Part shown: piece after piece, positions 54,721 through 56,674 of the stretch
Position numbering within the stretch: the stretch's first letter is position 1
How the letters are laid out: each line of letters begins with the position of its first letter
Origin: Elusimicrobiota bacterium
GTDB taxonomy: Bacteria > Elusimicrobiota > Elusimicrobia > UBA1565 > UBA9628
Reading direction: 5' to 3'
NCBI GenBank assembly: GCA_026388095.1
Contig: JAPLKL010000052.1
Location: forward strand, 1-60,146
DNA length: 60,146 nt
Translations under genes and position numbers: made by a program
The notes under the pieces: generated by a model
Told to the model about the DNA's origin: nothing
The model's database searches: none
What the model saw: the letters and a program-made list of their open reading frames with translations, nothing else

Positions 54721-55520
54721 CCACTCAAGAGACCACCATGGATGTGACCTTAAAGGTCTGGCGCCAGAAAGGGCCGGAGGAGCCCGGCAGCTTCGTCACC
54801 TACGAGGCCAAGGGCTGCACGCCGGACATGTCGTTCTTCGAGGCCCTCGACGTGGTCAACGAGGGGCTCGTGGCCAAGGGCGAGGAAGCCATCGCCTTCG
54901 ACCATGACTGCCGCGAGGGCATCTGCGGCACCTGCTGCATGACCGTCAACGGCCAGCCCCACGGCCCGGACCAGGCCGCCACGGGCTGCCAGCTGCATAT
55001 GCGCACCTACAAGAACGGCGACACCATCACCCTGGAGCCCTTCCGCGCCCGGGCCTTCCCGGTCGTCAAGGACCTGGTGGTGGACCGCTCGGCCCTGGAC
55101 CGCGTCATGGCTGCCGGCGGCTTCGTCTCCGTCAACACCGGCGGCGCGGGCGAAGCCAACGCCATCCTCATCCCCAAGGACAAGGCGGAGGCGGCCATGG
55201 ACGCGGCGGCCTGCATCGGCTGCGGCGCCTGCGTGGCCGCCTGCCCCAACGCCTCGGCCATGCTCTTCGTCTCGGCCAAGGTCTCCCAGTTCGCGCTCCT
55301 GCCGCAGGGCCAGCCCGAGCGCGACCGCCGGGTCCTGGCCATGCAGAAGCAGATGGACGCCGAGGGCTTCGGCAACTGCTCCAACGAGGCGGAGTGCGAG
55401 GCGGTCTGTCCCAAGGAGATCAAGCTCACCAACATCGCGCGCCTCAACCGCGAGTTCATCCGGGCCATCTTCTGGTCCCATGAGCTCCACCCCAGATCGG
55501 AAGCGGAGGGGCAGGAATAA
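54717..55520 (+). CDS. sdhB: Succinate dehydrogenase/fumarate reductase iron-sulfur subunit
   Basis: 267 residues carrying three clusters: [2Fe-2S] ligands C65, C70, C73 and C91 ([16 protein letters not shown]); [4Fe-4S] ligands C166, C169, C172 ([15 protein letters not shown]); and [3Fe-4S] with C176, C221/C227 and C231 ([18 protein letters not shown]). It links FAD to the quinone site. The ATG at 54717 overlaps the sdhA stop; an upstream frame is shadow. Its TAA (55518-55520) lies two bases before the 75-bp inverted repeat. Confidence 0.95.
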
Positions 55521-55522
55521 CG

Positions 55523-55597
55523 ACGAGCGCCCGGCCTTCGGCCGGGCGCCACCAGCGCTCCCCTATGAGGGGAGCGCTGGTTCCGTTGGGGTGGCCA
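55523..55597. repeat. Left arm of 75-bp inverted repeat (double hairpin)
   Basis: The arm folds into two hairpins: GCGCCCGGCC/GGCCGGGCGC around TTC, and a 13-bp stem CCAGCGCTCCCCT/AGGGGAGCGCTGG around ATG. A 17-base tail follows (TTCCGTTGGGGTGGCCA). It is inverted relative to 55967-56041. It starts two bases past the sdhB stop. Confidence 0.9.
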
Positions 55598-55602
55598 GCG
55601 CT

Positions 55603-56001
55603 GTGAATCTAAACGAGTCCTTTGACGTTTCTCCAGCCAAACTCGCCGACCTCAAATCCCGCATCACCCGCCTCGCCATCGACATCCGCCTCATCCAGGA
55701 ATCCTTCGTGCGCGGCGGAGGCAAGGGCGGCCAGAAGATCAACAAAACCGCCAACTGCGTCCAGCTCTATTATCCCCCCCTGGGAATCCGGGTGCGCTGC
55801 CAGAGGGAACGGCGCCGCTCGGTCAATCGCTTCCTGGCTCTGCGGGAGTTGGTGGACCGGATCGAGATGAAGGTCTCTCCGGAGACCTCTGAGAGGCTCC
55901 AGGAGATGGAGCGCATCCGGCGGAGGAAGTCACGACGGAAGGAGAGGACCACAGGCAAATACGGCTTGGCCACCCCAACGGAACCGGCGTCCCCCTCGTA
56001 G
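55603..56001 (+). CDS. RF-1-domain peptidyl-tRNA hydrolase (release-factor-like) inside an inverted-repeat unit
   Basis: About 132 residues from a GTG at 55603; a GTG at 55591 inside the left repeat arm is the alternative. The RF-1 domain has the catalytic GGQ (residues 42-44) in FVRGGGKGGQKINKTANC, followed by LGIRVRCQRERRRSVNRFLA and a basic tail (RIRRRKSRRKERTTGKYG) suited to binding rRNA or mRNA entry, as in ArfB-type rescue factors. No codon-recognition domain is present, so it should release peptides from stalled ribosomes. The last ten residues (ATPTEPASPS) and the stop are encoded by the right repeat arm, so the repeat has replaced or extended the C-terminus. Confidence 0.82.
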   Translation: MNLNESFDVSPAKLADLKSRITRLAIDIRLIQESFVRGGGKGGQKINKTANCVQLYYPPLGIRVRCQRERRRSVNRFLALRELVDRIEMKVSPETSERLQEMERIRRRKSRRKERTTGKYGLATPTEPASPS

Positions 56002-56041
56002 GGGGACGCCGGTGGCGCCCGGCCTTCGGCCGGGCGCTCGT
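55967..56041. repeat. Right arm of 75-bp inverted repeat (double hairpin)
   Basis: Reverse complement of 55523-55597 except for 10 positions. Three are in the first loop, which therefore reads the same on the plus strand in both arms. One is in the second loop. The other six form three compensatory pairs in the second stem (A-T/G-C, C-G/T-A, T-A/C-G). The arm encodes the end of the release-factor-like protein and ends beside the stop of the M15 peptidase gene. Confidence 0.9.
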
Positions 56042-56674
56042 TCAATATCCAGTCGGAGAGAAGTGCATGAAATCCTTCTGCCTCCCCTCGATCTTCCCGC
56101 CCCAATCGTAGCCGATCTTCTTCATCTCCTGGACCGCGGGGCTCTGCTCGGTCAAGGACAGCTCGGAGCCGGGCCGGTATTTGCCGCCTTTGCCCAGGAC
56201 GCACTTGGGCGACCATGAGAAACAGCTGTTGTAAAGGCCGTTGTAGTCCTCGTTGAGGTCGACCGCGACGCCGAAGGCGTGGTTGGAAAGCTCCGTGCGG
56301 TTTCCGCTCTTGTCGGCGGGCCCTTTGCTCATCTGCGCGCGGTAGCCCACGACGCTGACGATCTTCTGGCCTCTGGAGAGAGCGGCCTCCAGGGCGTCAT
56401 GGATCTTGTCCGCGACCAGCCGGCAGGCGCGCAGCTCCAGCCCATTGGGGAGCTTGACGGCGACCTGGTCCTCCTCGCAGGGAGTGCAGCCCAGCGGCCC
56501 TTTCTCCTTGGCCGTGAGCTGCGCGTAGGGCTTGGCCACGGTGCGATGGGCCTTCGAGGCCTTGGCCTTCACGTTCCAGACGCTGTAGGCGTAATGGCAT
56601 TGCGCCGGCTCTTCGGCGCGCGCGCAGACAGCCAGGAGCAGGGCGGCCGCCGCCAGATACGGCCCGAGCCTCAC
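56042..56674 (-). CDS. Exported M15-type peptidase (VanY/extensin-like)
   Basis: 210 residues. Signal peptide MRLGPYLAAAALLLAVCARA. The zinc site of the M15 DD/LD-carboxypeptidase group is H132 and D139 in ELSNHAFGVAVDLNEDYN and H204 in DFMHFSPTGY, with the conserved W191 nearby. Four cysteines (QCHYAY, GCTPCEED, NSCFSW, PKCVLG) suggest disulfides. It likely trims peptidoglycan stem peptides. Its start overlaps the OB-fold gene by ATGA; its stop touches the right repeat arm. Confidence 0.8.
   Translation of the reverse strand: MRLGPYLAAAALLLAVCARAEEPAQCHYAYSVWNVKAKASKAHRTVAKPYAQLTAKEKGPLGCTPCEEDQVAVKLPNGLELRACRLVADKIHDALEAALSRGQKIVSVVGYRAQMSKGPADKSGNRTELSNHAFGVAVDLNEDYNGLYNSCFSWSPKCVLGKGGKYRPGSELSLTEQSPAVQEMKKIGYDWGGKIEGRQKDFMHFSPTGY

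Follow-up and report, generated by a model that had tools for sequence, protein, structure and literature searches.

Inverted double hairpins flanking a release-factor-like gene in an Elusimicrobiota genome are probably two copies of a dispersed REP/BIME-like repeat

The window, by which we mean the whole 60,146-nucleotide stretch of DNA analysed, is contig C52 of an Elusimicrobiota genome of 4.6 Mb in 79 contigs (hereafter the home genome). Between sdhB and an M15 peptidase gene it carries a release-factor-like gene (RF gene) enclosed by two inverted arms. A repeat search of the window placed these arms at 55,523–55,597 and 55,967–56,041, 75 nt each, 87% (65/75) complementary and 369 nt apart, and fold prediction with DNA parameters gave two hairpins (hp1 and hp2) and a tail for each, in agreement with the original prediction, which had been read from the letters of the sequence. 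The features of the locus are as follows.

55,523–55,597, plus strand: left copy of the double-hairpin repeat, in canonical orientation with its tail towards the RF gene; genome G001 has an orthologous copy at the same place.
55,527–55,549, plus strand: hp1 of the left copy, 10 bp stem, loop TTC.
55,551–55,581, plus strand: hp2 of the left copy, 14 bp stem, loop ATG.
55,582–55,597, plus strand: unpaired conserved tail of the left copy, TCCGTTGGGGTGGCCA, with CGT[TC][AG]GGG in 28 of 30 home-genome copies.
55,603–56,001, plus strand: stand-alone RF-1-domain gene with a GTG start and a TAG stop inside the right copy; an ancestral neighbour, outside the repeat proper.
55,967–56,041, minus strand: right copy of the repeat, its tail likewise pointing to the RF gene; G001 has a decayed copy at the same place.
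55,967–55,982, minus strand: tail of the right copy, read from the sequence.
55,983–56,013, minus strand: hp2 of the right copy, from the repeat search and folding.
56,015–56,037, minus strand: hp1 of the right copy, whose plus-strand sequence is the same as that of the left hp1 (a direct repeat).

The unit is bounded by the stop codons of sdhB (55,518–55,520) and of the M15 gene (56,042–56,044), bearing out the close fit that had been predicted. Ten positions differ between the arms: six lie in the hp2 stem and form three compensatory pairs (A-T/G-C, C-G/T-A and T-A/C-G), and the other four are loop bases (hp1 TTC/GAA, hp2 ATG/ACG), again as originally described. DNA folding gave z values of −8.0 and −6.3 for the two arms, with no shuffled sequence folding equally well, and RNA folding was likewise far better than that of shuffled sequence. 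The arms scored 92.1 and 93.6 bits against the covariance model described below. A chance origin of the arms is excluded.

The RF protein contains an RF-1 domain (PF00472) and scores under the NCBIfam cut-offs for RF1, RF2, PrfH and ArfB; it is a stand-alone protein, widely conserved in Elusimicrobia. Orthologues were found in 30 of 38 genomes, the home genome included (E ≤ 1.1e-21), mostly without the repeat. Their alignment placed the start at GTG 55,603, 6 nt beyond the left arm and not inside it as had been suggested; the start codon is ATG in G001 and, in G005, a GTG that overlaps the stop of sdhB. The right arm does encode the last ten residues of the protein, as claimed, together with the TAG stop at 55,999–56,001. 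The sdhB–M15 junction was compared with relatives, a check that had been proposed. In G005, sdhB and the RF gene overlap directly with no repeat between them, and both arms are absent at the gene, whereas in G001 both arm sites are filled, in the order sdhB, repeat, RF gene, decayed repeat, M15, the left copy lying at the same position as in the home genome and the right copy having lost hp2. Because the RF gene is conserved and is free of the repeat in G005, it predates the arms at this locus or is at least independent of them.

Three options had been offered for this arrangement, and the second of them, two independent repeat insertions, is the one supported. The first was a mobile cassette, a transposable unit with the arms as its ends and the RF gene inside. 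The inverted arms do flank the gene exactly, and an IS1182-family element in G214 has a double hairpin near each of its ends (see below), but the position of the RF gene next to sdhB is ancestral, the gene is present mostly without the repeat, and the other home-genome copies are mostly solitary; a captured cassette is refuted at this locus by the orthologues, and we consider it very improbable. The third option, an RNA structure controlling the release-factor gene locally, could draw on the presence of both arms at the locus in G000 and G001. Against it stand the 36 further full-length copies that the home genome has at unrelated sites, the decay of the right arm in G001 and the absence of both in G005; the dispersed family refutes this option, which is scarcely credible. 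Repeats probably inserted instead on each side of the RF gene, next to sdhB, so that the gene now sits between two copies; the right copy extends its reading frame by the last ten codons and the stop.

A nucleotide search of the home genome with one arm retrieved many further copies, and a covariance model built from 16 aligned home-genome copies found 38 full-length copies there (E ≤ 2e-6). All six congeners were positive with the same model, with 21, at least 102, 18, 6, 1 and 18 copies, the figure of 102 being counted among 112 candidates scored and probably too low. The search of genome and relatives that the original prediction had called for therefore returned a family and not a single locus. 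The repeat occurred in 13 of 38 genomes in all, with a few copies in other genera of the order, and strong matches were obtained in 7 of 295 sampled genomes of the phylum, including the home genome. G024, a genome of the same order and similar size with the second-highest number of first-look candidates, gave no match at E 0.001. The plasmid collection held no match to the repeat, and the element retrieved nothing from Rfam at gathering score. Matches from a pattern scan of the contig collection were real in two Elusimicrobia MAGs; single matches in Vibrio, Nocardia, Actinomycetota, Deltaproteobacteria and Peptococcaceae were probably due to chance. The repeat family is thus found mainly in this Elusimicrobia genus, and its general form is hp1 – ACC – hp2 – TTCCGTYGGGG(TGGCC), about 65–75 nt. 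Among the papers searched, none dealt with repeats of this kind in Elusimicrobia, and the scattered double-hairpin repeat has apparently not been described so far.

Positions were read against a codon-usage gene model for the best 30 of the 38 home-genome copies, of which 27 could be cleanly classed: 14 lay between two genes running in the direction of the repeat, 7 between two genes running against it and 6 between convergent genes, and no copy lay between divergent ones. Divergent pairs make up 7 of 60 neighbouring gene pairs in the window, and the chance of 0/27 is about 0.035, which is weak by itself. Three of the 30 copies overlapped a predicted frame. Most copies lay within 20 nt of a stop codon. 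Such positions, together with the very stable RNA fold and the retention of copies at orthologous places, would suit an RNA element of gene 3′ ends, whose hairpins would be transcribed, would serve to terminate transcription or stabilise the 3′ end, and would be held in their paired state by selection on the RNA. Yet the T-run that would follow the hairpin of an intrinsic terminator was found in 0 of 98 copies in sense and 10 of 98 in antisense, the copies lie in both orientations relative to the upstream gene, and G.U pairs are scarce (see below). We regard this reading as possible but doubtful.

The pairing itself was kept while its sequence changed. Among the 16 seed copies, 51 cells had changed on both sides of a pair and none on one side. 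Among 123 matches, whose alignment was fitted to the structure of the covariance model and therefore favours paired cells, 95.2% of cells were paired, two-sided changes outnumbered one-sided ones by 543 to 15, and the covariation score was 0.557 compared with 0.126 after shuffling; when partners were slid by 1–3 columns, only 41–50% of cells were paired. Given this fitting, the comparison of 12 orthologous pairs, aligned by their flanks, is more telling: it gave 57 two-sided changes preserving Watson–Crick pairing, two broken pairs and one G.U.

An RNA transcribed from just one of the two strands would be expected to tolerate G.U pairs. These accounted for 16 of 2292 cells (0.7%) in the best 100 of the 123 matches, as against 5 of 168 (3.0%) in a small control, the acceptor stems of tRNAs from the same loci. 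Such a pattern is easier to reconcile with DNA hairpins, with a need for pairing on both strands or with templated copying from arm to arm than with a transcript of one strand. On the plus strand, the hp1 loop reads TTC in both arms of the home genome and GTA in both arms of G001 despite the inversion of the arms, which hints at copying or flipping. The original claim that selection acts on the folded form can therefore be kept in part: the folded form is conserved and the sequence is not, but 'selection' is too strong a word, since templated correction of the palindrome from arm to arm would likewise leave hardly any one-sided changes. Compensatory changes at a single locus are no proof of RNA function, and such readings call for caution; in orthologous hairpins, the ratio of two-arm to one-arm changes (57:3) makes selection and templated correction directly testable against each other.

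The family has also turned over within the genus. All nine home-genome loci compared with congeners varied in occupancy. The site at C7:8230, for instance, is filled in G000 and empty in G001 and G004. Clean unoccupied sites were seen between secG and yajC in G005 and at C7:8230 in G001, while other unoccupied sites retain half a hairpin or the tail; as several 'empty' sites are deletion remnants, part of the occupancy polymorphism is loss. Some orthologous copies have stayed in place throughout the divergence of the genus. No target-site duplication was seen at filled/empty pairs such as C7:8230. In G002 (L103, L105, L111), copies form +-+-+ arrays of alternating orientation with a period of about 185 bp, composites of about 300 bp recur on different contigs at about 90% identity, and copies on different contigs are 97–98% identical. 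Two copies in G033 are identical in the element and differ in their flanks. Also in G033, L217 (C119, 700–1400) is a MITE-like unit that has inverted ends near GTAAGTTCGCC and encloses a pair of double hairpins in inverted arrangement.

No mobilising enzyme was found for the repeat. One candidate is a Y1 transposase acting in trans on non-autonomous elements with IS200/IS605-like ends. Like the subterminal ends of IS200/IS605 (PMC6006769), the repeat has hairpins with flanking unpaired motifs, two of them here, and it lacks a target duplication, a formal likeness; Y1 genes were detected in 31 of 38 genomes. Unlike those ends (PMC6006769), its stems are hypervariable, no Y1 gene is linked and no cleavage motifs were identified. 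Y1 gene numbers do not track repeat numbers: G004 has six copies and no detected Y1 gene, and G024 has twelve Y1 genes and no copy. A scan of 11 Y1 loci gave one weak match to the repeat (E 0.035) and none that was convincing. A GT[AG]G tag was absent from the last six alignment columns 5′ of hp1 in all 98 copies, although it occurred within 16 columns 5′ of hp1 in 6 of 30 home-genome copies. We consider such IS200/IS605-like ends unlikely. The loci L044 (home genome, C46), L045 (C74) and L019 include two Y1 transposase genes; the one on C46 is flanked by the inverted repeat GGGGTCAGGTCTTGACATT, and a solitary GGGGTCAGGTCTTGACATT lies beside a double hairpin at C8:57855.

The IS1182-family element of G214 (L212, C16, 870–2719) carries two identical double hairpins, one about 40 nt in from either end. 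The tails of these hairpins point outward, and several further contigs of G214 terminate in copies of the element. Although this element bears the hairpins, IS1182 was rejected as the mobiliser, its transposase being absent from the six congeners at E 1e-20; the home genome has one partial-length match.

Repetitive extragenic palindromes (REPs) lie beside the 3′ ends of genes, where the neighbouring genes are co-directional or convergent. They form dimers, have alternative complementary stems and may supply stop codons; those of the CGTC group have no linked transposase, and G.T pairs are frequent in GTAG repeats (PMC3733652, Di Nocera et al.). The Elusimicrobia family resembles REPs, BIMEs and REPINs (PMC3733652, PMC3116915, PMC2817692) as a set of short palindromes in high copy number with dimers and alternating arrays, and it shares with REPs the alternative complementary stem residues, the gene 3′ ends, the supply of a stop codon and, as in CGTC REPs, the lack of a linked transposase. 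In the broad sense, it is a dispersed, multi-copy, mostly extragenic palindrome near 3′ ends, with inverted dimers and alternating arrays. It departs from the REP unit, a single hairpin of 20–40 bp, in having two hairpins and a conserved tail of about 10–15 nt, and from the GTAG and CGTC groups in lacking either tag at its foot and in having almost no G.T pairs. Neither the tag 0–2 nt 5′ of the hairpin foot nor a nearby tnpA-REP gene (RAYT) of GTAG-REPs was found; nor does the family show the layout of CGTC-REPs, with CGTC at one end and a short CCA-type tail at the other. CGTC stood just 5′ of hp1 in 4 of 98 copies, and a conserved CCGTY is present instead 3′ of hp2. Terminal inverted repeats such as those of MITEs were not recognised in single copies, and pairs of the C7:8230 type show no target-site duplication. 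The family is best filed as REP/BIME-like in the broad sense, and neither as a GTAG-REP nor as a CGTC-REP.

Taking these lines together, the two arms at the RF gene are probably copies of a dispersed non-coding REP/BIME-like repeat. Its spread would proceed via hairpins of single-stranded DNA, driven either by a trans-acting enzyme or by a process coupled to replication, and copies would be tolerated at gene ends. What keeps the palindromes perfect may be arm-templated repair, selection (for the hairpin in DNA, or for hairpins when either strand is transcribed), or the two together. More tentatively, the repeat could be amplifying DNA in which the double-hairpin shape and short tail are what is inherited, the stems being rewritten simultaneously on both arms by replication-templated copying and the copies spreading with no dedicated transposase. 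The REP-type repeats whose spread and palindrome upkeep have been studied are mostly proteobacterial; the present family adds a double-hairpin form from a phylum that has received little study, and it seems to have neither the usual tag nor a linked transposase.

Two other kinds of double hairpin were compared with the family. 6C RNA (RF01066) is C-rich. It likewise has two hairpins, but is not a dispersed repeat, and its match of 26 bits, below the gathering score of 47, was treated as chance. Double-hairpin elements of fungal mitochondria are dispersed and consist of two adjacent stem-loops with variable stems. They resemble the repeat in these features and belong to unrelated genomes.

Some variant forms were seen alongside the main repeat. 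At L017, L021 and L023 (C15, C74 and C7 of the home genome) there is a second double-hairpin repeat, GAGCGCCCGGC...GTCCCGACGC...GGAAGAACC, which has its left end in common with the main repeat and a different tail. L103–L122 of G002 comprise tandem and alternating arrays, and many copies in this genome have a common form of hp1, which contains an internal GTCC-type loop. The tail TTCCGTTGGGG at L064 and L062 (C2 and C40 of the home genome) and at L173 and L191 (G003) may be translated as the beginning of signal peptides downstream (FRWG). At the C2 site in G003, the hairpins are mostly gone and the tail remains.
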